This document shows positions 4,404-64,000 of a stretch of DNA of 64,000 bases, piece after piece. A program made the translations under genes and the position numbers. Source of the DNA: Proteus columbae (lineage in GTDB: Bacteria; Pseudomonadota; Gammaproteobacteria; Enterobacterales; Enterobacteriaceae); assembly GCF_009914335.1 (NCBI RefSeq), contig NZ_CP043925.1, positions 2,356,001 to 2,420,000 on the forward strand, written 5' to 3'. How positions within the stretch are numbered: the stretch's first letter is position 1; every line of letters begins with the position of its first letter. Under the pieces are notes generated by a model. That model saw nothing but the letters and a program-made list of their open reading frames with translations. It had not been told where the DNA came from and ran no database searches.

Positions 4404-4858
4404 ATTTCAGCTACTTTATTTTTAATCATCGCTTAACCCTTAGATAACTAAAGAAAATAATTATTAAATATACATTTGAAATTAAGCAATCTATCTTTTT
4501 ATAATTTAAAACTTTTTATTTTTATATATTAAATTCCAGCACTAAATATACTTATTAAATATAGGCTCATTTAATATTTATTTAATTTTGTAGGAAATAG
4601 AGCTTATAATTTTTAGGTGTACTCATTTCTATAAAATATTAATTTCTTATTATAAAAATAATTAAAACCCATCATTTATTATATGGTTAATAATTCATCA
4701 TATTGAATTTTATCATTTTTTTAACATTTGAAGATCGTTTAAAATATATTTAAAACAACCTGATTTAATAATGATAATTATTATCAATATCATCTTTGAA
4801 ATATAATAAATAATATGTTGCCTTTCGAAAATAATATGTTATCTTCTGCACCAAGTCA
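4404..4858. other. AT-rich intergenic region, no gene seen
   Basis: There is no open frame with a credible start or ribosome binding site on either strand. The region is extremely AT-rich. The only element I can support is the Fur-like palindrome at 4772-4786 listed separately; the promoter of the riboswitch leader presumably lies within about 4,780-4,850. Confidence 0.6.
4772..4786. promoter_or_regulatory. Fur-box-like 7-1-7 palindrome upstream of mntP leader
   Basis: The sequence TGATAATTATTATCA is a perfect 7-1-7 inverted repeat matching the core of the Fur recognition pattern. It lies about 75 bases before the conserved riboswitch core. In E. coli, mntP is known to respond to Fur and MntR, so control by metal status is plausible here. 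The local AT-richness makes chance matches easier, hence moderate confidence. Confidence 0.5.
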
Positions 4859-5040
4859 TTGGGGAGTAGCCTGTCTTAAAATAAGAATAATTATTTTAAG
4901 AAATCTGTATCAACATACTCGCTTATTTTCATCTAGCGTGGTGCAGATGCCGTAATACGGTTGGCAAGACCATAGACACATAATTGTACTTCTTTGGTTG
5001 GGGGTCAATTGTGTGTATATGGAAATACCCCAACCGAGGC
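4855..5040 (+). ncRNA. yybP-ykoY manganese riboswitch in the mntP leader
   Basis: The leader contains the conserved aptamer pieces recalled from the E. coli mntP leader: GGGGAGTAGCC near 4861 and GGCAAGACCATA near 4963, separated by paired AT-rich arms. Downstream, GGTTGGGGG (4996-5004) pairs with CCCCAACC (5028-5035). That hairpin ends directly against the GAGG ribosome binding site at 5036-5039, eight bases before the mntP start. Manganese binding is expected to change access to this site and so raise MntP synthesis when Mn2+ is high. Confidence 0.85.
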
Positions 5041-53501: not shown

Positions 53502-55244
53502 TTAGATCCCCACAATAATTGGGTTATCAAAGAAACCATCAATATCCCCTTCATCCTCGAATTCCCCTTCAGAAGCCCCAATCGCCATTGCAGAGGCCAC
53601 CACACCATCAATTCGACCCGTGCTTTTTTTCTTGGCAAAGACGCGGTTATCTTTTTGGTCCGCCTCAAGCACAGCGGATGCGGCATTCCATCTCAAACAA
53701 GGATTAGCGTGGATCTCAATCTTCTTGTCATCAATGAGCTGTTCAAACAGTTCGATAGAGTGTGGCATCCATAGCCCTGAGTCTTTGGCTCTGTAAAACC
53801 CTTGGCCATGTTGGATTAAGGGAACCGTCACCCCCACCTCATCAAGTTTGGGTACAAGGTATTTAATGCGATAAGGGTCAAAGGCAATGGCTCTCATGTT
53901 GACGCGCATTGCCATCTCGGCGATACGTTCTGCCACAAATTCATATCTCACCGCATTCCCTGGCGTGGTATGCATAAAACCTTGCCTTACCCATAAGTCG
54001 TAGGGCACTCGGTCGGTTTTCGCTCTATCCAATAAGGTGTCTTTGGGTGTCCAAAATTCAACATAAAGACGTTTGAGGTGAGGAAAATACAGGGCTAATG
54101 CGGTTAAATCTTTGGTTCCTGATAAGTCCAGTCCGCCATAACACTCTTCACCTTGAAGATCATCGAAGGTGAACGTGTTTTCACACTGCATCCATGTTTC
54201 ACTGTTAATCCACGGATTATCGGCATCCACCCACTGGCAAAAATTAAGCCGACGCACAATGCTTTCTTTTGCGGGCATACCTCGAGCTTGTGTCACTTGT
54301 TCACGTAAGTAGCGATCAGAAAAGGTGTAGCCCAATGACGGATTGGCTTTCCCCCAGCAAAACTCATCCTTAAAGGGATCATCGCCCTCATCCAGTGAGC
54401 AAATATAGGAAAAGAAGCTGTCGTCTTCGATAGTGCCTTCGGCAACTTTTCGTCCGTATTCATGATAGTCATAACACACACTGGTTTTATCATGCCCACT
54501 ATTGGTGATCATAAATATCAAGGCTTGTCGCCGACCTTTTGTGCCCGCTCGCATCATCTCAACGGCGGTATTATTTTTATGCTCATGAATTTCATCTATC
54601 AGCGCACAATGGGGACGAGGCCCTGATTGCCCATCATCTGAGCTAATCGGGCGAAAGAATGAACTCGTTTTCAAATAAGCCAAGTTCCACTCTTTGCCTG
54701 TTCCGCCTGATTTGGTGATCCGCTGACTTAATGCGGGAGATTGATCAACCATCGCCACCGCATCACGAAACAAAATCATGGCTTGGTCTTTTTTCGTGGC
54801 TGCCGCATACACTTCGGCACGCGGTTCACTGTCGGCGACTAAACAATACAACCCAACGCCACCTGCCATCGGTGATTTTCCTGAACCTTTACCTGATTCA
54901 ACGTACACCATGCGAAATCGGCGTGTTCCATCAGTCATTTTCCAGCCAAAAATAGAACCAATCACAAAGCATTGCCAAGGCAATAAAATAAACGGTTTGC
55001 CTTCATGCTCCCCGCCATTGAGCTTTAAGACTTTCGCAAAAAAATCGATCACTCTTTTGACGGCTTCGACATCCCAGACTAATCCCCGTTGCTCGGCTTC
55101 GTTTAAATCTTTGAGATGACGCGCACAAGCATGACGAATATCAGGTCCCGCTAAAATTTTGCCTTGATGCACGTCTTGCGCGTATTGCGTTGCGGGATCA
55201 ACCGAAATATTGGTTGAGCGGATCTTCCTCTTCTTCTCCACCAT
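53502..55244 (-). CDS. Terminase large subunit
   Basis: The 580-residue packaging motor has an N-terminal ATPase with Walker A in VESGKGSGKSPMAGG (about residue 125) and Walker B in CALIDEIHEH, and a C-terminal nuclease domain with Asp in GGLDLSGTKDLTALALYF and AFDPYRIK. It pairs with the P27-type small subunit, whose gene it overlaps by 47 bases. Together with HNH, portal and protease this is an HK97-like packaging module. Confidence 0.95.
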   Translation of the reverse strand: MVEKKRKIRSTNISVDPATQYAQDVHQGKILAGPDIRHACARHLKDLNEAEQRGLVWDVEAVKRVIDFFAKVLKLNGGEHEGKPFILLPWQCFVIGSIFGWKMTDGTRRFRMVYVESGKGSGKSPMAGGVGLYCLVADSEPRAEVYAAATKKDQAMILFRDAVAMVDQSPALSQRITKSGGTGKEWNLAYLKTSSFFRPISSDDGQSGPRPHCALIDEIHEHKNNTAVEMMRAGTKGRRQALIFMITNSGHDKTSVCYDYHEYGRKVAEGTIEDDSFFSYICSLDEGDDPFKDEFCWGKANPSLGYTFSDRYLREQVTQARGMPAKESIVRRLNFCQWVDADNPWINSETWMQCENTFTFDDLQGEECYGGLDLSGTKDLTALALYFPHLKRLYVEFWTPKDTLLDRAKTDRVPYDLWVRQGFMHTTPGNAVRYEFVAERIAEMAMRVNMRAIAFDPYRIKYLVPKLDEVGVTVPLIQHGQGFYRAKDSGLWMPHSIELFEQLIDDKKIEIHANPCLRWNAASAVLEADQKDNRVFAKKKSTGRIDGVVASAMAIGASEGEFEDEGDIDGFFDNPIIVGI

Positions 55245-55665
55245 CCATCTTCACCTTCGAACGAGCGGCGGGGGTTAAACCAAACTCGACTAAATAACTT
55301 TTAAAAAGACCGTCTTTTTTGTCCAACATGGCAACGGCTGGATTCGCTTTAATTAAAAAATCCCCTAATTGCGTTTTTGTGGTGTATGTCTTACCTTCAA
55401 TGGCAATGGTGTCTCGCAATTGAAGAATATCGGCGTAGATATCACACAGCCGTTCTAATGCCAGCGTGTCAGCCACGGTTAAAACGCCCATCCCATCGAG
55501 TATTAAGGTTAATTTTGCCCACGCCATTTTCCCCCAATCCGTTAAATGCTCGGGTGGGCTTGGAATTTCACGTTTGGGTTGGGGTTCTTTATCGTTGAGT
55601 TTTCGTTTTCCCGGATTACCGGTGACCACCTTCAAGTGGGTCGGTTTCGGGCGTCTTCCTGCCAT
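55198..55665 (-). CDS. Terminase small subunit, P27 family
   Basis: The 155-residue protein begins MAGRRPKPTHLKVVTGNPGK, the usual N-terminus of P27-family small terminases, followed by GVLTVADTLALERLCDIYAD and EFGLTPAARSKVKMDGGEEE. It recognises the packaging site on phage DNA. It overlaps the large subunit gene. Confidence 0.92.
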   Translation of the reverse strand: MAGRRPKPTHLKVVTGNPGKRKLNDKEPQPKREIPSPPEHLTDWGKMAWAKLTLILDGMGVLTVADTLALERLCDIYADILQLRDTIAIEGKTYTTKTQLGDFLIKANPAVAMLDKKDGLFKSYLVEFGLTPAARSKVKMDGGEEEEDPLNQYFG

Positions 55666-55689
55666 CGGAACCTCCCAGAAAAAAACTTT

Positions 55690-55783
55690 TCATTTCGCGG
55701 TTGTGCACACAAATGAGGGCGCTAGGTAATCAGGGCGAAAGTGTTTGAACTTTTACCCCGCCCCCACCCTGTATTTCATGGTG
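55690..55783. other. Candidate cos region
   Basis: In phages with an HNH gene next to P27-type terminase genes, the packaging site commonly lies between them. This 94-base non-coding stretch is much more GC-rich than its surroundings and contains the pyrimidine-rich ACCCCGCCCCCACCC (55,755-55,769). Proposed on position and composition only. Confidence 0.35.
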
Positions 55784-56122
55784 TTATTGATGCCAATGAG
55801 AATTGGGATCGAGTGGAATGCCATCCGCATTACAACCAATGACTTTGCCACTCTTTTCGATACGTTGTTTGGTTGAGTTATGATGCAGTTCGCATAAGCT
55901 TTGAAAGTTCTTTGTGTCCCAGAATAAGGCTTGAGCTTTTGCGATACGTTCTTTATCACCTGATTCAAGTGCCTCTTTAAGACGATGCGGAGTAATGTGG
56001 TCAACTACTGTGGCTGCAGTAATACGTCCTTGCTCTTGGCACATGACGCAAAGTGGATGTTCATTAAGAAATGCTAATCGCACCTTTGCCCACCGACCAC
56101 CATAGACATTGCATTTTTTCAT
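55784..56122 (-). CDS. HNH endonuclease (packaging associated)
   Basis: The 112-residue protein begins MKKCNVYGGRWAKVRLAFLN and has a Cys pair in HPLCVMCQEQG plus the HNH motif VVDHITPH ... NFQSLCELHHNSTKQ. Enzymes of this type (HK97 gp74-like) work with terminase at cos. It overlaps the stop of the previous gene by four bases. Confidence 0.9.
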   Translation of the reverse strand: MKKCNVYGGRWAKVRLAFLNEHPLCVMCQEQGRITAATVVDHITPHRLKEALESGDKERIAKAQALFWDTKNFQSLCELHHNSTKQRIEKSGKVIGCNADGIPLDPNSHWHQ

Positions 56123-56526
56123 GGTTTATTTCTGACGACATCAGCGTCTATTGATGATTGCTTATTGCAGGTAATAATTCCTTTGAATATAGCGTCACTA
56201 GACGTACTAAAACCTAAAGAATTATCGCTACTAATAACATAATGTTCATAATCAGCCTTATCCGCCCATTGATTATTAGTGGTTGCTAGTGTGATGATAG
56301 TTTGATTTATCTCATGTATTTTTTTTAGCAATTTAGCTGGCTTATCAATACTATTTAAATCGATGATTTTTGTGTTTCTTGGATCTGTATAAGGAAATTG
56401 CCCTGAATGACAAATCGCTATGAATTCTTTATATAGGTTGCTTCTCTCTTCAATTAGCTGCGATATTTCTTTTTGCAAGTAAACACAATGACCTATTGCC
56501 TCATAATTAATCTGTTTGTTTGACAT
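56119..56526 (-). CDS. Hypothetical phage protein
   Basis: The 135-residue protein begins MSNKQINYEAIGHCVYLQKE. I do not recognise it. It is mostly helical with an N-terminal coiled-coil tendency (CVYLQKEISQLIEERSNLYK) and no signal peptide. Start at 56526 has GGAG upstream. Its stop overlaps the HNH start (ATGA), so the two are probably translated together. Confidence 0.65.
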   Translation of the reverse strand: MSNKQINYEAIGHCVYLQKEISQLIEERSNLYKEFIAICHSGQFPYTDPRNTKIIDLNSIDKPAKLLKKIHEINQTIITLATTNNQWADKADYEHYVISSDNSLGFSTSSDAIFKGIITCNKQSSIDADVVRNKP

Positions 56527-56606
56527 AATAAACTCCAATAAAAAGCCATTAGGGCCTATTCATCGTTAGATATTAATTAAATCAACATCCTCAATTTTAA
56601 GGATCG

Positions 56607-57119
56607 CTATTCAATACCAGGAATATAGATTTGAGCTTCTTTAAGAATTCGTTCCCTCGCTGTTAGTAGTAACTGCTTTCTACCACCAACACCCCAGTTA
56701 GCCATCGTTCTCGCGCAGCTACTAACATTTTTTGTTTCGGTATTGATTACATGATCTAACTTGTTCAACTTAGCCATGATATCTAACCCTTTTCTCGTAG
56801 CATCCTTAAAGGTGTTATATACGAGAATTTCAAACTCAGGCTTTAGCCAAGCTGCGTATCTAATAACAACCAATTCTAATGCCCACACACCATGATTAAG
56901 CCCACCGTTAATGACTTTGACCGCAGTGCATTTTTGCATTGCGCTTAATTTTTCTACAAATGTCTTAACCTGTTTGCTTCTCAAAAATTGACTTGGCTTT
57001 TGATTCTCTCTGGCTTCGCCATTTGCCACGGCTGAGGCATGTAAATCATTTAGGTTATATCTTCCTTTGTCATCAACGCGAACAGATACACCATTAATAC
57101 TTACTCTTGGATATTGCAT
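56607..57119 (-). CDS. KilA-N domain protein
   Basis: The 170-residue protein has a KilA-N DNA-binding domain in residues about 1-110 (YNLNDLHASAVANGEARENQ, SQFLRSKQVKTFVEKLSAMQ, GVWALELVVIRYAAWLKPEF). The C-terminal part ends YIPGIE. KilA-N proteins are common in phages and some interfere with host growth; the role here is unknown. It lies apart from the structural genes, at the edge of the long gene-poor interval, and could be expressed separately. Confidence 0.8.
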   Translation of the reverse strand: MQYPRVSINGVSVRVDDKGRYNLNDLHASAVANGEARENQKPSQFLRSKQVKTFVEKLSAMQKCTAVKVINGGLNHGVWALELVVIRYAAWLKPEFEILVYNTFKDATRKGLDIMAKLNKLDHVINTETKNVSSCARTMANWGVGGRKQLLLTARERILKEAQIYIPGIE

Positions 57120-57274
57120 AACGTATTACCTTCATTTGAAATGAACCCTCGTTCACATAGAAAATCAGCCCGTCGAAGCTCGCCAGCTATAACTGACTTT
57201 CTCGAAGGCTCATATCAAAGTGATTGGATTCGACGTTTGTGAATTGCTCTGTGAATGAGCGATGTAATGCGTAT

Positions 57275-57305
57275 AAAAAAAGCCACCAGCGATTAACTGA
57301 TGGCT
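57275..57305 (-). terminator. Minus-strand terminator, copy A
   Basis: The stem AGCCATCAGTT / GCTGGTGGCT on the minus strand is followed by seven T residues. A related sequence occurs at 58,490-58,514 where the stem is broken. Confidence 0.75.
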
Positions 57306-57863
57306 ATCTGTATACACAACTCAATGAATGATGTTTGTAGATGATGTCTCTCCATCGTCACGCCCCTTCTTCTACCTACAGCTGACGTTGCTGATAATGA
57401 CCGAAAAATAACAAAACGGTGGTATTCGTTGTTTTTGATTTCTCTTATACACTCAATGTGAGGAGAACATGTCATCGTTAATGTAATAAGAACAGCGACA
57501 ACGCGACGCTACATATAAAATAGTAGCTAACTGCATACCCAATGTGCCTTGATACAATTCACCTTTATCAATGCACTTTTTCCACATAGCTTAATACCTT
57601 TATAAATCATGCCATCAACTAGCATTTTTAAAAATACGCACAATCTTTGTGATCCGGCTTCTTTTTCATTTAACTATTGATGCAACATGAAAATTGGTTA
57701 CGATAATACCTATCTTCATTATAAACCTAGACAGATATGATATTTTAGATATTGCACAAGGATTATACAAAAAATTATTTATAAATTAATAAGTTAAGTT
57801 TACGAATCAAAATTTATCAGTTAATATTTTTCTTGATGATATGTTAATTATAACGCCGTTTTT

Positions 57864-57888
57864 CGCCTCTCTCCCGAGGCGTTTTTTT
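57864..57888 (+). terminator. Plus-strand terminator 1
   Basis: CGCCTC / GAGGCG stem, then seven T residues. No plus-strand gene precedes it. A possible promoter TTTACG-N17-TAATAT lies upstream near 57,800-57,830. Confidence 0.85.
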
Positions 57889-58210
57889 ATTCATAAAGTA
57901 ACCTTTACATTCTATTCTCTGTTACCTGATATTTTTTGGCACTGAATCCACCCAATGAAAAAATAAACAAGTTATCACAGGTAATCCTTAACCATAAAAC
58001 CTCATAAATAACGATTTCTAACCCAATATTTTTAGTGTCCATTAAAAATCATAAGGTTACTTATCTAATCTTTGATCTAAACACTAGAAACATATTAAGC
58101 AAGTATATATGCTTAGCAACTTATACAACGTATAAGTTACTTCTATCTATGAGACTTAGTGTCTTCCTTTGGGCACACTGATTAGACTCTGTATTTTAGC
58201 TTTATTGTCA

Positions 58211-58246
58211 CCCCTGTAATTATCCTAGCTTACAGGGGATTTTTTT
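58211..58246 (+). terminator. Plus-strand terminator 2
   Basis: The nine-base stem CCCCTGTAA / TTACAGGGG is followed by A and seven T residues. Upstream sequence (ACTAGAAACATATTAAGCAA, near 58,082) resembles that before terminator 6. Confidence 0.85.
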
Positions 58247-58255
58247 CTAAACAAT

Positions 58256-58283
58256 TTGCTAAACTCAAATTAGTAATTATACT
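58256..58283 (+). promoter_or_regulatory. Plus-strand sigma-70-like promoter of unit 3
   Basis: TTGCTA and TATACT are separated by 16 bases, starting ten bases after terminator 2 and leading to terminator 3. Confidence 0.5.
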
Positions 58284-58345
58284 TAAAAAAGTTATGCATA
58301 ATAGTATCGCTATATTTATCATTAAATTGATATTTTGTTCTACTT

Positions 58346-58378
58346 AGCCTTTCGTTCATATAGATATGAAGGGCTTTT
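58346..58378 (+). terminator. Plus-strand terminator 3
   Basis: AGCCTTTCGTTCATA pairs imperfectly with TATGAAGGGCT, followed by TTTT. Confidence 0.7.
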
Positions 58379-58653
58379 CTTATTAAAAGTAGCACTAAAT
58401 ATCAAATTCAACAATAATATTAGTATCCCCTCATTTACTAATCAGCAGCTATAAAGATAAAGCTTGTTTATAATATCTTTCAATTAAAAAGCCACCAGCA
58501 ATCAAAACTGATGGAGATTATGTTGGATATTTCTTATCTTCCTTTCTCTATAACTAGCATTGCTTGTTATGCCCCAAATAGCAACGTAGTGATATTCGTA
58601 GAGAATATCTGATAACAACTGTATGTTAAACAATCAAAATACAATATTTTTCT

Positions 58654-58682
58654 TGGCATCATGCAGAAATAACAGTATAATT
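58654..58682 (+). promoter_or_regulatory. Plus-strand sigma-70 promoter of unit 4
   Basis: TTGGCA and a consensus TATAAT are separated by exactly 17 bases. The expected start is near 58,689, about 60 bases before terminator 4. No coding frame follows. Confidence 0.65.
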
Positions 58683-58709
58683 GACACATGTTTATTGTTG
58701 CTTCATTTC

Positions 58710-58747
58710 AGCCGCTCTATGAACTCAAACTCATGGGGCTTTTTTTA
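58710..58747 (+). terminator. Plus-strand terminator 4
   Basis: An imperfect stem AGCCGCTCTATGA / TCATGGGGCT is followed by seven T residues. Confidence 0.7.
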
Positions 58748-58931
58748 TTCCATATCTAACTTTCTAAAGACAACTAATCAAAAATAAGGTTGATATGTTT
58801 ATCTGAGTTATACTTTATTAACATCACTATACTTATAGTGATTAGTAATTTGAGTATTTCAGTCCATTTTATATAACTCAATTTCAGACATTTATATCCA
58901 ATATAATTTATAAAATACTAAAATATTCTTT

Positions 58932-59354
58932 CTATTTTAATAAAGATAACACAACATCCTCATATTTTTTACCCATAGGTGAATATTCTCCCATATCACA
59001 AACATCAAACTCCTCTTTCAAAGAATCATAAATAATGCTTGCAAACATATCACAATCCACCATTCTCTCATCTTTTGTAAGTTCATAAATTAAATGATAA
59101 TGTTGAAGTAACTCAGTATCAAACCTAGGGTTAAAAGATAATGGTATTTGATCACCTTCACTGTTTACTTTATTTCTATTGTTATGCATTAAAAGATAAA
59201 CATTATCAAACGCTATATCCTCTTTCGCTGCAACACATGCAACATAAGATTCATATGTTGCCGTTGTAACTAGAGTTCTTTCCATTAATGCCTGAGTATT
59301 AATTGATAAGGATAACAGAGTAATAATAATTAATATTTTATTTATCATTTTCAT
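58932..59354 (-). CDS. Hypothetical secreted protein
   Basis: The 140-residue protein has a signal peptide (MKMINKILIIITLLSLSINT, cleaved near QA-LM), then a soluble domain with cysteines in YESYVACVAA, MVDCDMFASI and EFDVCDMGE. I do not recognise the family. The gene is strongly AT-biased and lies alone in the interval between terminase and lysis modules, so it may be a moron expressed in the lysogen. The ribosome binding site is poor; a start at the second Met (59348) is possible. Confidence 0.6.
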   Translation of the reverse strand: MKMINKILIIITLLSLSINTQALMERTLVTTATYESYVACVAAKEDIAFDNVYLLMHNNRNKVNSEGDQIPLSFNPRFDTELLQHYHLIYELTKDERMVDCDMFASIIYDSLKEEFDVCDMGEYSPMGKKYEDVVLSLLK

Positions 59355-59661
59355 AAAAATAATTTATAGTATTTTCTATTACTTTTAGGATAACATCATT
59401 ATTAAATAATCCAAATATTTCTCAATGAAATTATAATCCCTATCATTTCATCATATAAAATTCATTTTAATCATAATATCAATGTATAAAAATTTATATT
59501 TTTAAAACTCGATCACCGCATATAACATTAATCTTCATAACCAAATTAAATAAAAATAATTTTATCTTACTTCCAATCATACAGAGATATCCCATTTAAT
59601 TTTTTAATAATTTAACCTTTTATTGTGGTAATTTAGATTAATTCGTTTATTTATATGACAA

Positions 59662-59690
59662 TTGATGATATCTTAAGAGAAGATCATAAT
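59662..59690 (+). promoter_or_regulatory. Plus-strand sigma-70-like promoter of unit 5
   Basis: TTGATG and CATAAT are separated by 17 bases, about 25 bases before terminator 5. The TTGATGATAT string also occurs before terminator 1. Confidence 0.5.
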
Positions 59691-59714
59691 ATTGATTAAT
59701 ATCCTTTCCTGTTT

Positions 59715-59741
59715 AGCCCATTTCTTATATTGGGCTTTTTT
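59715..59741 (+). terminator. Plus-strand terminator 5
   Basis: AGCCCA / TGGGCT stem followed by six T residues. No plus-strand gene precedes it. Confidence 0.85.
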
Positions 59742-59860
59742 CTTGAATGCCTTCATTCCTCTTAATTTTTCCTTAACAATTCACACTAGATACTAGAAAT
59801 TTATTAAACAGATAAATATACTACATATCGTCATAATTCATTTTTTATAACTTTTTATTC

Positions 59861-59888
59861 GCGCTCTATACCATGAGCGCATTTTTTT
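59861..59888 (+). terminator. Plus-strand terminator 6
   Basis: GCGCTC / GAGCGC stem, then seven T residues that overlap the last bases of the Rz stop codon on the other strand. Confidence 0.85.
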
Positions 59889-60348
59889 ATTCTAAGCATT
59901 CATGTTTGATATAATCCTGTAACCCAAGAATCACTCGTTCTGACTCTGCAATTCGCTCTCTGAGTAACCAATAATTTCGGATAGCGGTGTCTGTAGGTCG
60001 GGCGGTGGTTGCATAAGCCAAGCTGGTGGAGGGAGTGGTTTTGACTTTGGGACACTCGGCTTTGATGTACACCCGCTCAGGATGATGCTCGCTAATATCA
60101 CGCAAGCGACTAATTTCATTCTTAGCATTCGCTAGCTCCTGCGTATATTGAATATCCAACTGATTTAATCGCATTATGCGTGCTTGATAATCAGTATTAA
60201 TAGACTTCTGTTCTTCAAGAGCAATCGTTAGTTCTTTGTTTGTTTCTACTAACAGATTAATTCTGTTACCTTGCCTGTTAATCACCCAATAGCCACCAAC
60301 AATAATACCTGTCATCGCGATGACGGCATAGAGTTTTTCGTATTTCAT
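59887..60348 (-). CDS. Rz: Rz-type inner-membrane spanin
   Basis: The 153-residue protein has one N-terminal transmembrane segment (residues ~6-24, LYAVIAMTGIIVGGYWVI) and a long coiled coil. Its C-terminal pattern is ELANAKNEISRLRD ... RVYIKAECP ... PTDTAIRNYWLLRERI, the signature of Rz proteins. With Rz1 it spans the periplasm and disrupts the outer membrane at the end of lysis. The start at 60348 places the transmembrane segment correctly. Rz1 is encoded within it in another frame. Confidence 0.9.
   Translation of the reverse strand: MKYEKLYAVIAMTGIIVGGYWVINRQGNRINLLVETNKELTIALEEQKSINTDYQARIMRLNQLDIQYTQELANAKNEISRLRDISEHHPERVYIKAECPKVKTTPSTSLAYATTARPTDTAIRNYWLLRERIAESERVILGLQDYIKHECLE
59931..60128 (-). 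CDS. Rz1: Rz1-type outer-membrane spanin lipoprotein
   Basis: The 65-residue lipoprotein is encoded entirely inside Rz in a different frame. The lipobox ILSGC is followed by a proline-rich stretch (KPLPPPAWLMQPPPDL), exactly the Rz1 pattern. It complexes with Rz. Confidence 0.9.
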   Translation of the reverse strand: MLRMKLVACVILASIILSGCTSKPSVPKSKPLPPPAWLMQPPPDLQTPLSEIIGYSESELQSQNE

Positions 60349-60350
60349 GA

Positions 60351-60509
60351 TTAGTACCGATGATGTGAGAGTGCAATCTGACAACGTTTTTCTAAACTCT
60401 CTTGGTCTTTAGTACATGAGTTATCAATCAAGAGATAAATGCCACCAGCGACTGTAATGAGTAATGCAAGGATAAAGCTGATAATGATGATTAAAGGTTT
60501 CCATGACAT
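60351..60509 (-). CDS. Small inner-membrane protein of the lysis cassette
   Basis: The 52-residue protein begins MSWKPLIIIISFILALLITV, with one transmembrane segment and a short Cys-containing tail. Family unknown; its position between endolysin and Rz suggests a lysis-related or regulatory role. GGCGGAG lies upstream of the ATG at 60509, inside the endolysin gene's end. Confidence 0.65.
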   Translation of the reverse strand: MSWKPLIIIISFILALLITVAGGIYLLIDNSCTKDQESLEKRCQIALSHHRY

Positions 60510-60961
60510 AGTGCTGACTCCGCCTCTCGACGACTGACAAGCCCTCGCCAAACCTTTCCACCCGCATATACCCAGCGTTTAATTTCTTCACAGGCACCCA
60601 TTCTATCACCTGCATTTAGTTTCTTGAGTAATGTTGAGCGAGCAAATGCGGTAGCACCCACATTAAAAGCAAAGGAATATAAAGCGGCTTTGGTGTGCTC
60701 ATCGAGTGGAACTTTGATTAATGCATCGACTAGTTGTTTTGTCTTAATAAAATCGTTTTGTAATAACGCATCACATTCTTGTTGTGTGTATCTCTTACCT
60801 TGAATAATGTCTTTGCCTGTATGCCCATAACAAACCGTCAAAACGCCTGCCACATCACGATAAGGTTCATAACGCACACCTTCAAAATGGGCTATCACTA
60901 CTAATGCGATTGCTGTGGCTACTGCTGTTGTTAGCGCCGCTATTTTCTGTTTGAGAGACAT
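60491..60961 (-). CDS. Endolysin, GH24 lysozyme (SAR type)
   Basis: The 156-residue muramidase has an N-terminal hydrophobic segment (residues ~8-25, ALTTAVATAIALVVIAHFEG) that fits a signal-anchor-release sequence. The catalytic triad of T4-type lysozymes is E-x8-D-x5-T in FEGVRYEPYRDVAGVLTVCY. The cysteine after the Thr is common in RrrD-like SAR enzymes. Holin precedes it directly (stop and start share one base region at 60961). Confidence 0.92.
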   Translation of the reverse strand: MSLKQKIAALTTAVATAIALVVIAHFEGVRYEPYRDVAGVLTVCYGHTGKDIIQGKRYTQQECDALLQNDFIKTKQLVDALIKVPLDEHTKAALYSFAFNVGATAFARSTLLKKLNAGDRMGACEEIKRWVYAGGKVWRGLVSRREAESALCHGNL

Positions 60962-61230
60962 TAAATATCCTTTGGTGCTTTCACCATTAATTCAGCAAGC
61001 CTTTTTAACGTTTCAGTCGGGTTTTGTGGGTCAATATGTTGAACAAGCTCTTCAAATAATTGAGTGCGTTTTCGCTGTTCTCGACGAGTCATAAAATAAG
61101 TGGCTAAACCCAGAACCATGCTAAACGCCATCCCAATAACAAATCCCCATTCATATAATGAGAGGCTGGCAAAAAAGGCCGTTAGGCCTGCTGTTCCATA
61201 GGTTACATTGGTTAATTTTTCCATACGCAT
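60961..61230 (-). CDS. Holin (phage HP1-type or similar)
   Basis: The 89-residue protein begins MRMEKLTNVTYGTAGLTAFF with two hydrophobic segments (about 14-31 and 34-52) and a charged C-terminal tail (TRREQRKRTQLFEELVQHID), typical of class II holins. It controls lysis timing. The start at 61230 has a GGGGGTG ribosome binding site. Confidence 0.8.
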   Translation of the reverse strand: MRMEKLTNVTYGTAGLTAFFASLSLYEWGFVIGMAFSMVLGLATYFMTRREQRKRTQLFEELVQHIDPQNPTETLKRLAELMVKAPKDI

Positions 61231-61295
61231 AGTCACCCCCAAAGGAGTGTCCGTTGATGATGAGTGTGAGAGAGTTAAAAGTGAAACGATAAAAA

Positions 61296-61718
61296 TTAGG
61301 CGGGCATTGATACTTTAAGTGCCTTTAATAAACCTTCAGGCAACTGTTCTTCCAGTGACGCATTAGAAACAATCACAAGACCATACATAGATATCCATGT
61401 ATTCGTTTGTTGTAAGTGTCCCTGAATAAATTGCTTCGCTTTCTCTAACAAATAAACACAACTCTCTTGTGTGTTTTTACGCCAATAGGATTCAATCGCC
61501 ACCAGCAATGGAGCACCAGCATTACCAATTTTTTGCAAGCCGATTCGATATTGCTTTTTACCTGCGGGAGACGTTGTGCAAATTAATTGTGTCAGTTGTT
61601 GAGTTTCACCATCAGCCGTATGGATATTCGCCGTTAAAATGATAGAGGTGTTCTTTTCACTGTCTGTTTCTGAAGCATAGTGAAGACTAAACTGTAATTC
61701 GTTTATCTCTTTTGGCAT
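61296..61718 (-). CDS. Hypothetical phage protein upstream of holin
   Basis: The 140-residue protein begins MPKEINELQFSLHYASETDS. It is not recognised. It has an alpha/beta pattern with IILTANIHTADGETQQLTQL and a C-terminal helical part, and no membrane segment or signal peptide. AAGGTG precedes the ATG at 61718. It is part of the late operon by orientation and spacing. Confidence 0.65.
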   Translation of the reverse strand: MPKEINELQFSLHYASETDSEKNTSIILTANIHTADGETQQLTQLICTTSPAGKKQYRIGLQKIGNAGAPLLVAIESYWRKNTQESCVYLLEKAKQFIQGHLQQTNTWISMYGLVIVSNASLEEQLPEGLLKALKVSMPA

Positions 61719-61787
61719 GATGAGCACCTTTTATTGATATATGTCATATTTAGACAAGAAAAAAACCACTGTTGTGGATTCATATAA

Positions 61788-61815
61788 TTGATATTTTAAT
61801 GATAATAATTATCAT
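61788..61815 (+). promoter_or_regulatory. Plus-strand promoter overlapped by a Fur-box core
   Basis: TTGATA and TATCAT are separated by 16 bases. The spacer and -10 are covered by AATGATAATAATTATCATT (61,798-61,816), whose centre TGATAAT-A-ATTATCA is a perfect 7-1-7 Fur core. The predicted start is near 61,822. Confidence 0.6.
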
Positions 61816-61821
61816 TACAGC

Positions 61822-61937
61822 ACATATCTGGTTTTCCCTGATATTGATACATTGTTTTATTGATAATTTATCTCGTTATTAACACTATTCCCGAGAGTTT
61901 ATGCCGACATAACTCCTAGCGTGTCGGCTTTTTTTTT
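61822..61937 (+). ncRNA. Candidate Fur-controlled small RNA (unit 7)
   Basis: About 115 bases from the predicted start to the end of a strong terminator contain no open frame of note. Promoter with Fur core, short transcript and terminator form the same layout as ryhB. I do not see the RyhB core sequence, so homology is not claimed. The transcript would run opposite to the late operon, between two small phage genes. Confidence 0.45.
61903..61937 (+). terminator. Plus-strand terminator 7
   Basis: GCCGACA / TGTCGGC stem followed by nine T residues. The only protein gene nearby is on the other strand and ends at 61951. Confidence 0.9.
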
Positions 61938-61950
61938 GCTCAAATTTAAG

Positions 61951-62184
61951 CTAGCCTCGGCAAATAACACGAACAGTATCTCCAGTCACTGTTGTAATGT
62001 AGGCTTGGTCTGTACGCTTAATATCAAACGATGGAATAGAGTCTTTTTTTGTGTGTTCGACTCGCGCTACGATATCTTTATTTCCAGGCTCAGGATAAAA
62101 CTCTAAGCGATACATTTCGCCTAAGTGGTGAACCTCCTCTACTTTACGGCCTTCACGTTCAGTAATTAATTTAAGTGCGTACAT
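61951..62184 (-). CDS. Hypothetical small phage protein
   Basis: The 77-residue protein begins MYALKLITEREGRKVEEVHH and is beta-rich, ending GDTVRVICRG. Not recognised; similar short MYALKLI proteins occur beside lysis genes in enterobacterial prophages as I recall. AAGGAA lies upstream of the ATG. Confidence 0.65.
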   Translation of the reverse strand: MYALKLITEREGRKVEEVHHLGEMYRLEFYPEPGNKDIVARVEHTKKDSIPSFDIKRTDQAYITTVTGDTVRVICRG

Positions 62185-62212
62185 ACATTCGTTCCTTATT
62201 TTAGATAATAAA

Positions 62213-62234
62213 AAAGACCGCCTAAGCGATCTTT
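62213..62234 (-). terminator. Minus-strand terminator between two small late genes
   Basis: AAAGATCGC / GCGGTCTTT stem with a T run on the minus strand. It follows the Cys-rich protein gene. Confidence 0.7.
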
Positions 62235-62256
62235 GATTAATTCACACATTTTTTAT

Positions 62257-62469
62257 TTATGATGTATGGCATTCACTACAGCACCAATAACAACCATCAG
62301 CAGTTCTATAACCATTAACCTTTGCTTGAGAAACAGCCTGAGCACAACTGGTAAAATAACCTAAATATTGCCGGTTTGACGCATTAGGCATATGGTCGCA
62401 ACCATCTTGATGAACCTCATAATCACCATGATTATCAGTAGATGTATGAACATAGTAATGATGATACAT
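62257..62469 (-). CDS. Small Cys/His-rich phage protein
   Basis: The 70-residue protein has histidines near the N-terminus and the pattern HGDYEVHQDGCDHMPNASNR, FTSCAQAVSQAK, and a terminal DGCYWCCSECHTS. The cysteines suggest metal binding. I remember a widespread family with the same HEVH..GC ... GCYWCC.ECH ending but no known function. AGGTAT lies before the ATG. Confidence 0.7.
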   Translation of the reverse strand: MYHHYYVHTSTDNHGDYEVHQDGCDHMPNASNRQYLGYFTSCAQAVSQAKVNGYRTADGCYWCCSECHTS

Positions 62470-62678
62470 AAATACCTCTTATTGTTGTGTACACAAAGAG
62501 ATAATATGTTAAATAGTTAAGTTGTTCTTACCCTTAGCTCACATATCAAAGATCTATCTGGTAATTTTGGATAAATAAACTTGCAAGGATTACTTACAGG
62601 TTGAAATAACGTCATTGGAACTCATCAAGATAATATCAATAAATTAACCTATGATCCCCCATCTATGAAGGTAATGCC

Positions 62679-62813
62679 TTAGAACTCAGGAGAATTAAAG
62701 CTTCTGCTCCTCTCTTTGCGCTCTTCTTCTGACAACTTATCGTGCTCGGTGTAAAGTTTAGCTTTAACTAAATCAGCTATAGCTGGATATTTAGAATCCA
62801 TCGAATTCTTCAT
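62679..62813 (-). CDS. Small 44-residue phage protein
   Basis: The frame starts with ATG at 62813, behind CTGGAG, and reads MKNSMDSKYPAIADLVKAKL then a charged helical part (SEEERKERSRSF) ending NSPEF. Good ribosome binding site, clean codon pattern and position between the tR'-like terminator and the next late gene support it. No known family. Confidence 0.6.
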   Translation of the reverse strand: MKNSMDSKYPAIADLVKAKLYTEHDKLSEEERKERSRSFNSPEF

Positions 62814-62832
62814 ACATATAAACTCCAGATAA

Positions 62833-62857
62833 CAAAAAACCCCGCCGAAGCGAGGTT
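62833..62857 (-). terminator. tR'-like terminator downstream of the Q-like gene
   Basis: The GC-rich stem AACCTCGCTTCGGCGGGGTT is followed by a T run on the minus strand, 50 bases after the antiterminator gene. This is where lambdoid phages place the terminator that Q overrides. Confidence 0.8.
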
Positions 62858-62905
62858 CATAAGTTGGTTGACCTTGATGTCAGTCTTATCACAATATCAA
62901 TTATC

Positions 62906-63307
62906 TTACGATCGTAAAGTCTTAAAACGATTTTTTTCTACATATCGATCCATTTCTAATGGAACCTCAAGCATCATCAACATTCCTTCAATGATACCTT
63001 CCGCTTTTTGTAGTTTTTTTCCAATATAAGTATCAGAACAATGATGTTTTTCTGCTAACTGAATGAAGGTCATTCCAAACAAATAATAATCGACCAATAG
63101 ATCATGCATATCACTACTTTTTTTATTTAATTGAGCCATACAACTGGAAATTATCATTGCATCATCTTCACTGCACTGAGGACGGGATTTCACTTTATTA
63201 GGTATTAATCCTTTAAAACCTGCAGCGATAGAATACCATTGAACTGATTCAGTATTATCAGCACACCACGCTCCCCAACGTGATAAAACTTCCTGTATAT
63301 CTCTCAT
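62906..63307 (-). CDS. Antiterminator Q-like protein
   Basis: The 133-residue protein begins [20 protein letters not shown] and has [20 protein letters not shown] followed by [19 protein letters not shown], a sigma-region-4-like helix-turn-helix; this is the pattern of the short Q family (Phage_antitermQ). It would allow late transcription through the terminator just downstream. The start at 63307 has GGGAG upstream. Confidence 0.82.
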
Positions 63308-63334
63308 GCTAATACTCCCAGCTCTGTACACACG

Positions 63335-64000
63335 TTAAACCAATGCCCTCATTCCTAATGAGCGGTTTAGAAAAGAAAATAATAATTCGAGTTGATTACC
63401 ATAAGTGGCTTCCCACAACTTGGGATCACGATGTAACTCATCATGATGTTGCCGACATAATGGAATAGTGAATAAGTCATGAACTTTCGTTCCCATACCT
63501 CCCATACCATGGCCGATAATGTGATGTGGATCGTCAGCTTGTTGTCCGCAAACACAACAAGGCTGTGTTTTCACCCATTGAAGCCATTGGGAATTCTCCC
63601 AACGTTGTATTTTAGGTTTCAAAAGGAATGACGCTAGTGGCTCAGGATCGATAGCAACTTTTATGACTGGTCTTATCGTGTCTAATCGTTCATTCATTGT
63701 TGATAGTGCTGTTACATTGCTTGGAATAATATCTGCTTCAGGAAAACCACCATGTACCCTGCGCTCTTTAGGTTTTTCAGACCAATCCAAAATTTGACGT
63801 AATATCGCATCAGGTAATTCATCAACCAAGTTATGCATCACAGCAAATGAGAAAAAATCGGGTATTGTCAGCTGGTGGCCACTATCTAATCTCAAACGAC
63901 TACGAATAGTGTCTACCATCCAAGCAATACGATTTTTATGAGCCAATTCAGCAACCCACTCAGCTGATGAATGGCGAATATGATTATCATGGTACCAACA
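63335..64000 (-). CDS. DUF968 protein with HNH-like zinc motif (5' end beyond window)
   Basis: The frame is open to the last base, so the N-terminus is missing; 221 residues are present. The C-terminal part has QPCCVCGQQADDPHHIIGHG, MGTKVHDLFTIPLCRQHHDE and LHRDPKLWEATYGNQLELLF, the DUF968 pattern, with a CxxC...H...H arrangement like HNH nucleases. In lambdoid phages DUF968 genes stand in the nin region just before Q; a recombination or repair role is proposed for relatives. Confidence 0.85.
   Translation of the reverse strand, partial: CWYHDNHIRHSSAEWVAELAHKNRIAWMVDTIRSRLRLDSGHQLTIPDFFSFAVMHNLVDELPDAILRQILDWSEKPKERRVHGGFPEADIIPSNVTALSTMNERLDTIRPVIKVAIDPEPLASFLLKPKIQRWENSQWLQWVKTQPCCVCGQQADDPHHIIGHGMGGMGTKVHDLFTIPLCRQHHDELHRDPKLWEATYGNQLELLFSFLNRSLGMRALV

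Follow-up and report, generated by a model that had tools for sequence, protein, structure and literature searches.

The small RNA RyhB (RF00057) and its relatives are the closest described counterparts of unit 7, a predicted small RNA on the plus strand of a Proteus columbae prophage region. RyhB is switched on through Fur when iron is scarce, depends on Hfq and represses iron-using genes. Unit 7 lies in the window, as we call the whole stretch of 64,000 nucleotides (nt) analysed here (G000:C1:2356001-2420000, in a genome made of a single contig of 4,114,477 bases). Like RyhB, the unit 7 family has a Fur box over the promoter, a terminator with a U tract and, in its type A members, the RyhB core in altered form; unlike RyhB, unit 7 scores below the Rfam cut-off, has an altered core and is carried by a prophage opposite the late genes. 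RfrB of Salmonella, also called IsrE or RyhB-2, is likewise a diverged, island-borne RyhB sibling under Fur, and its conservation with RfrA lies mostly in nt 37-69, but a position in a prophage late operon is not described in the accessible part of that source (PMC4211561). According to the same part of PMC4211561, PrrF1 and PrrF2 of Pseudomonas also combine a Fur box with a terminator and are without sequence homology to RyhB; they form tandem pairs, as do types A and D of the family presented below. Pas (PMC13192938) and svsR (PMC12803456) are small RNAs carried by prophages, the PasD genes lying less than 10 kilobases (kb) from a Q gene (PMC13192938), but neither RyhB descent nor Fur control is described in the available portions of these two papers. 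The RNAs of prophage BTP1, including STnc6030, are antisense to phage lytic genes and made in the lysogen; STnc6030 differs in its length of over 700 nt and its role in superinfection exclusion, and no Fur box is mentioned in the part of PMC7067206 available. Among the matches listed from the open-access literature, no prophage-borne, Fur-controlled relative of RyhB was found, subscription papers being mostly outside the search.

A first-pass annotation of this DNA had described seven plus-strand terminators, at least four of them with promoters, and had read them as a single family of diverged small-RNA units antisense to the late operon, numbered here 1 to 7 by their terminators; the Fur box, the link to RyhB and two minus-strand elements of the gap, M1 and M2, were absent from it. 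We argue that unit 7 is quite probably a prophage-borne small RNA of RyhB descent, switched by Fur and endowed with a new pairing region.

Results

Unit 7 is composed of the following features:

61788..61815, plus strand: promoter, TTGATA / 16-base spacer / TATCAT (promoter scan; 43 of 200 shuffles score as well)
61800..61814, plus strand: Fur box TGATAATAATTATCA, 7-1-7 without mismatch, over the -10 (motif search)
61822..61937, plus strand: predicted RNA of about 116 nt, its start placed from the promoter
61840..61859, plus strand: block 1, what probably remains of the RyhB core, assigned via type C
61871..61894, plus strand: block 2, proposed new pairing region (types B and C differ at one of its 24 letters)
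61901..61938, plus strand: terminator with loop CTCCTAGCG and a long T run (terminator scan)

We take TGATAATAATTATCA to be a Fur box on the strength of the 7-1-7 motif. It is one of two perfect matches to this motif in the 64 kb, and Fur motifs with at most two mismatches number 10 there against 1.31 expected, a count reached in none of 100 shuffles. At 4772-4987 on the plus strand, the other perfect Fur box directly precedes a yybP-ykoY manganese riboswitch. Since so many shuffles equal its score, the unit 7 promoter rests on the Fur box and on conservation: at most two Fur box mismatches occur in all 55 distinct sequences of the family, as against 14 of 1000 shuffled stretches.

The family was collected with a pattern for the unit 7 terminator hairpin, which matched 55 stretches of IMG/VR and 17 of the species genomes (genome_contigs). 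Family members account for 54 of the former and nine of the latter, all nine from Proteus; the remaining IMG/VR locus (L121) and the eight non-Proteus genome matches were dropped because they are without Fur box and body. Two models were built, R1 from types B and C, window included, and R2 from twelve type A sequences, window excluded; unit 7 scores 125.7 bits with R1, which was built with it, and 45.0 bits with R2, which was built without it. Over 96 loci (designated by L numbers), R2 gave 76 matches at an expectation value (E) of 0.001, namely 56 of type A, 11 of type B, 6 of type C and 3 of type D, making up the 55 distinct sequences; these sites are not independent, since numerous loci share a contig or strain of origin. 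Type A is the commonest relative, and the genome of the window holds two copies of it in other prophages (1389878-1390027 and 1636326-1636474). Unit 7 itself is of type B. Type C has both type B blocks, the 24-nt block 2 differing by one letter, and type D directly follows type A in L115, L139 and L159, and by eye in L039 too. Two or three members are found in each of six loci; in L115, types C, A and D all lie within 2.4 kb. The type D stretches (L115:5560-5699, L139:10527-10666 and L159:710-849) are Fur-boxed and hold a RyhB-like CACATTGCTC stretch.

The place of these RNAs is fixed with respect to the late genes. A late gene lies within 6.5 kb at 71 of 75 sites, being out of reach at the other four, and the RNA is opposite every such gene in all 71. 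Most sites are directly upstream of the gene that precedes the holin gene and are flanked on their far side by Q, cspA or hsp20; the few cargo genes that run with the RNA are XRE-type and HchA-like, as named by eye from sequence. Cargo of cspA and Hsp20-like genes between Q and the lysis genes is seen in L036:3099-4273 and other prophage loci, and the prophage cspA carries the Rfam cspA thermoregulator leader in six of the seven loci scanned. In phage genomes, block 2 was found in 16 viral stretches, all within loci already collected, while unit 7 had no match among INPHARED phages; a type A query with flank matched six INPHARED records over 23-33% of its length.

We then compared the family with RyhB genes. 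R2 also matches the four RyhB genes of the window's own genome (45.9, 37.5, 33.5 and 25.9 bits), and among 392 genomes of the bacterial family it matched 31, five of them Proteus. The 15 non-Proteus loci inspected (L201-L204 and L207-L217) have an ordinary core, exact in 14 and 20/21 in one, and their 1.5-kb flanks contained none of the prophage proteins. Over chromosomal copies, the RyhB core is exact (21/21) in 20 of 21, with 20 of its 21 letters in the remaining one; three of four chromosomal copies compared with type A read ACGACATTGCTCACATTGCTTCCAGT. In type A, 12-19 of the 21 letters are kept in 45 distinct sequences, mostly 18, and never the exact core; the own-genome copy reads ACGACATGACTTACATTGCTTCTTGCG at this place. 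The terminator loop CTCCTAGCG is common to unit 7, types A and C and the chromosomal RyhB of L184. A gapped alignment of type C to the RyhB core is equalled by 2 of 2000 shuffles. Judged on these sequences, descent of types A-D from a RyhB gene is firmly supported for type A and probable, by a chain of resemblances, for types B-D. Unit 7 has two of the marks of a RyhB gene, the Fur box over the promoter and the intrinsic terminator with a long T run; the RyhB core CGACATTGCTCACATTGCTTC is not found in it. The canonical core also occurs in nine viral stretches, in eight of them within about 350 bases of the stretch end, perhaps as host flank (L234 and L228 being the two inspected); in L226-L233 it lies 110-350 bases from the end, three times at exactly position 225. 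This placement would perhaps reflect a phage attachment site beside ryhB.

Within type A, mean identity reaches 0.967 in the Fur box, 0.987 in the linker between core and terminator and 0.965 in the terminator; it is 0.906, with deletions, in the core. Downstream DNA drops to 0.472, and near upstream DNA stands at 0.984. Because the type A linker is the best conserved and types B and C keep block 2 at this place, the pairing region appears to have shifted out of the RyhB core and into the segment that leads from there to the terminator, a shift that would give these RNAs targets unlike those of RyhB. We propose that Fur bound at 61800-61814 would silence unit 7 in iron-replete cells, and that this block would be lifted under iron starvation; the resulting RNA, about 115 nt long and with a uridine tract at its 3' end, would probably bind Hfq and base-pair with other RNAs. 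Duplex energies against two superoxide dismutase starts were not informative, and one start had been set too far upstream. Exact matches to the complement of the sodB start, as corrected, extend to 8 nt at most in the four host RyhB; the longest is 7 nt (ACATTGC) in 38 of the 46 distinct sequences of type A and in 4 of the 8 of types B and C. Shuffles reach at least 7 nt in 68 of 500 cases, and the match was not counted as evidence.

The other units lie among the following genes of the prophage region:

62906-63331, minus strand: antitermination Q (PF06530)
60961-61230, minus strand: holin (PHROG 1350)
60491-60961, minus strand: phage lysozyme, Phage_lysozyme (PF00959)
59887-60348, minus strand: Rz (PF03245)
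56607-57119, minus strand: KilA-N (PF04383)
55198-55665, minus strand: terminase small subunit, Terminase_4 (PF05119)

That the protein genes here are all on the minus strand, as had been described, is true of every one that could be named. Unit 7 was misplaced by the proposal that the units occupy the gap between terminase and lysis genes; it is sited outside the gap, with Q on one side and the lysis genes on the other. The gap also contains a minus-strand frame (58932-59354) for a 140-amino-acid protein with a signal-peptide-like start and no Pfam or PHROG match, a relative of which, at 75% DNA identity, is present in a genome of the same genus (G012). A conserved minus-strand stretch (57120-57236) stands directly 5' of the KilA-N gene. 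Salmonella phage Emek likewise has it 5' of a KilA-N gene, and in Klebsiella phage RothC it is 5' of a gene annotated as a homing endonuclease.

All seven plus-strand terminators were recovered within 4 bases of where they had been placed (57864, 58211, 58346, 58714, 59715, 59861 and 61901), with no minus-strand call among them; a stricter scan recovered three of the seven. Between 57121 and 59886 the plus strand holds six terminators, whereas 500 dinucleotide shuffles averaged 0.46 and peaked at 4 (0.45 and 2 in a smaller run of 60). These six are units 1-5 and a weaker terminator at 57544, new to the present analysis; unit 6 extends past the interval and was not counted. The four sigma-70-like promoter sequences are present as first written. 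As a class, promoters are not enriched, with 33 such sites in 55000-64000 against 37.9 +- 5.4 in shuffles. A density equal to that of shuffled sequence, which the first-pass annotation had named as grounds for refutation, is thus seen for promoters and not for terminators. The best upstream consensus promoter was equalled or beaten in 195, 157, 73, 60, 73 and 43 of 200 shuffles for units 1, 2, 3, 5, 6 and 7, respectively; only unit 4 had an unusual score, with 3 of 200 shuffles as good. In 24 non-redundant gaps between Rz and terminase from related prophages (10 shuffles per gap), terminators opposed to the late genes numbered 58 against 14.2 expected, and those on the late strand 48 against 8.1; 21 of the 24 gaps held at least one of the former, and 21 of the 24 at least one of the latter. 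These gaps are, judging by their terminators, generally rich in short transcription units.

Five of the seven units are close to private to this prophage:

57864..57888, plus strand: unit 1 terminator (terminator scan; promoter not above chance)
58211..58247, plus strand: unit 2 terminator (terminator scan; promoter not above chance)
58256..58385, plus strand: unit 3, promoter-like site and terminator 58346-58375 (promoter and terminator scans)
59662..59745, plus strand: unit 5, promoter-like site and terminator 59715-59736 (promoter and terminator scans)
59794..59888, plus strand: unit 6, promoter-like site and terminator 59861-59880, adjoining the 3' end of Rz

Each unit was compared by blast (E 0.01) with 40 loci (L033-L072), most of them chosen for matching this gap. 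Units 1, 2, 3, 5 and 6 were matched in L038 only, where a prophage fragment is 98-100% identical, apart from unit 1 fragments of 22-38 nt in L044 and L062; they had no match at E 1e-4 in the later loci L073-L182. Unit 6 was considered as a conserved RNA facing Rz and rejected: its hairpin has counterparts in a few loci, but the upstream sequence is unrelated. The short motifs said to be shared by the units are indeed there (AATATTTTTCTTG at 57823 and 58643, TTGATGATAT at 57833 and 59662, ACTAGAAA at 58083 and 59792). Exact 13-mer repeats number 4 against 0.48 expected (3 of 200 shuffles as high), and there is a single exact 14-mer repeat (25 of 200). Because such sharing is no more than mildly above chance, it does not establish one family of diverged units, and the proposal finds no support in kinship either, with unit 7 related to RyhB, unit 4 in another family and the other five near-private. 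The scans indicate that these five are genuine terminators, which would end local transcripts. As to small RNAs encoded antisense to the late operon, comparison supports this view well in the case of unit 7 and reasonably in that of unit 4.

Unit 4 and its minus-strand neighbours are arranged as follows:

58653..58748, plus strand: unit 4, promoter 58653-58681, RNA about 58687-58748, terminator 58714-58739
57276..57510, minus strand: M1, conserved element with its own terminator, 57307-57279 (blast, terminator scan)
58480..58650, minus strand: M2, second such element, terminator 58514-58492, adjoining unit 4

The unit, about 60 nt long, is conserved in 15 other loci (six in the 40-locus blast, then nine more), partly redundant in that several are near-copies of one another; in all 15 it adjoins an M element on the opposite strand and lies opposite the late genes. 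Its -10 keeps TAT..T in 10 of 10 aligned sequences (8 distinct) and TTGGCA is kept in 5 of 10. In the terminator stem all 48 cells are paired (9 of 500 shuffles as high), and one pair is changed on both sides (AU in 4, GC in 4), which 363 of 500 shuffles also reach. Stem and promoter conservation lend modest support to a small-RNA unit, and unit 4 is reasonably supported as a separate conserved one between an M element and Rz. Kinship of unit 4 with RyhB was rejected (16.6 bits, E 0.6). A narrow unit 4 pattern matched one viral stretch, and the plasmid collection gave two weak matches near unit 4, both in 4-Mb Proteus records. The terminators of M1 and M2 are of the GCCATCAGTTAATCGCTGGTGGC type. 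M1 was matched in 30 of the 40 loci (E 0.01), several over the terminator end alone and the loci having been partly chosen for M1; it is also present in Providencia phage PSTCR3, between Rz and terminase. In L040, L053, L055, L057, L064, L065, L066 and L187, a terminator of the unit 4 type closes a different conserved stretch that resembles an RNA (TTGATTATTAACAGATTGG...), which suggests that RNA bodies are swapped while their terminators are shared.

Discussion

A number of results weigh against reading unit 7 as a retargeted descendant of RyhB. Its R2 match lies mainly in the Fur box and terminator ends, the middle aligning poorly. Types B, C and D keep 13, 14 and 13 of the 21 core letters, where shuffles average 11.2 and reach 14, so that the 13 letters of the window are within the shuffle range, and its gapped core alignment is equalled by 260 of 2000 shuffles. 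With the Rfam RyhB model, the window scores 15.8 bits and the own-genome type A copies 30.1, under the gathering cut-off of 55, and type C is not listed among the matches. No family match came from the locus with the most closely related gap, L038, although both Q and the gene preceding the holin are present there. Few genomes yielded types B and C: of the 392, R1 matched only the own genome and, weakly, one other, at 29 bits in a 0.6-Mb genome, which we take as chance. A search of the own genome for the complement of block 2 with at most three mismatches returned only block 2 itself and no target; allowing wobble pairs gave 7 sites, one being itself, against 5 for the reversed control, and again no target. 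The unrecognisable core and the two-ended match would suit a Fur-controlled small RNA not descended from RyhB that gained Fur box and terminator separately, and PrrF, to whose model (RF00444) unit 7 scores 26.8 bits under a cut-off of 90, has the same layout and does the work of RyhB without being its homologue. We nevertheless think such a separate origin unlikely: unit 7 occupies the same place as type A, shares its loop with type A and the RyhB of L184, and is connected to the RyhB core by type C. Nor does simple decay of a functionless RyhB copy convince us; it would account for a core that is altered in every one of the 45 type A sequences and deleted in some, but block 2 is retained between types B and C, and the type A Fur box, linker and terminator are conserved while downstream DNA diverges (a contrast qualified by the equally high identity of the near upstream DNA), which makes decay very improbable.

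Two further explanations concern the units more widely. The plus-strand terminators could mainly insulate, stopping antisense transcription into the late operon, with idle RNAs; an excess of terminators on both strands of the 24 gaps, and the fact that most units are without conserved body or above-chance promoter, fit this. It leaves unexplained why unit 7 has a Fur box and why the bodies of units 7 and 4 are conserved, and we assign it a low probability overall; for units 1, 2, 3, 5 and 6 it may still hold. Unit 4 and its M element, adjacent on opposite strands in the 15 loci (redundant in part), could also make up a module of two RNAs, such as a toxin-antitoxin pair. However, the predicted unit 4 RNA does not overlap M and so is not its antisense, and no known toxin was recognised by eye among the frames, no family search having been made; such a module is, in our view, a slim prospect.

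For unit 7 we retain RyhB descent with a Fur switch and a displaced pairing region. Beyond this locus, we are not quite half persuaded that Proteus prophages hold a radiating set of RNAs (types A-D), which would have kept the switch and terminator of RyhB, broken its core and acquired new pairing regions. The RyhB core is nearly frozen on chromosomes, yet altered in prophage copies in which the Fur switch is kept. Two questions thereby become testable: how new targets may arise for a small RNA that no longer serves its former ones, and whether the iron status of the host is sensed by prophages. If this wider picture is true, iron starvation would let a prophage redirect messages of host or phage that lie outside the RyhB regulon, and do so from a locus facing its late genes.

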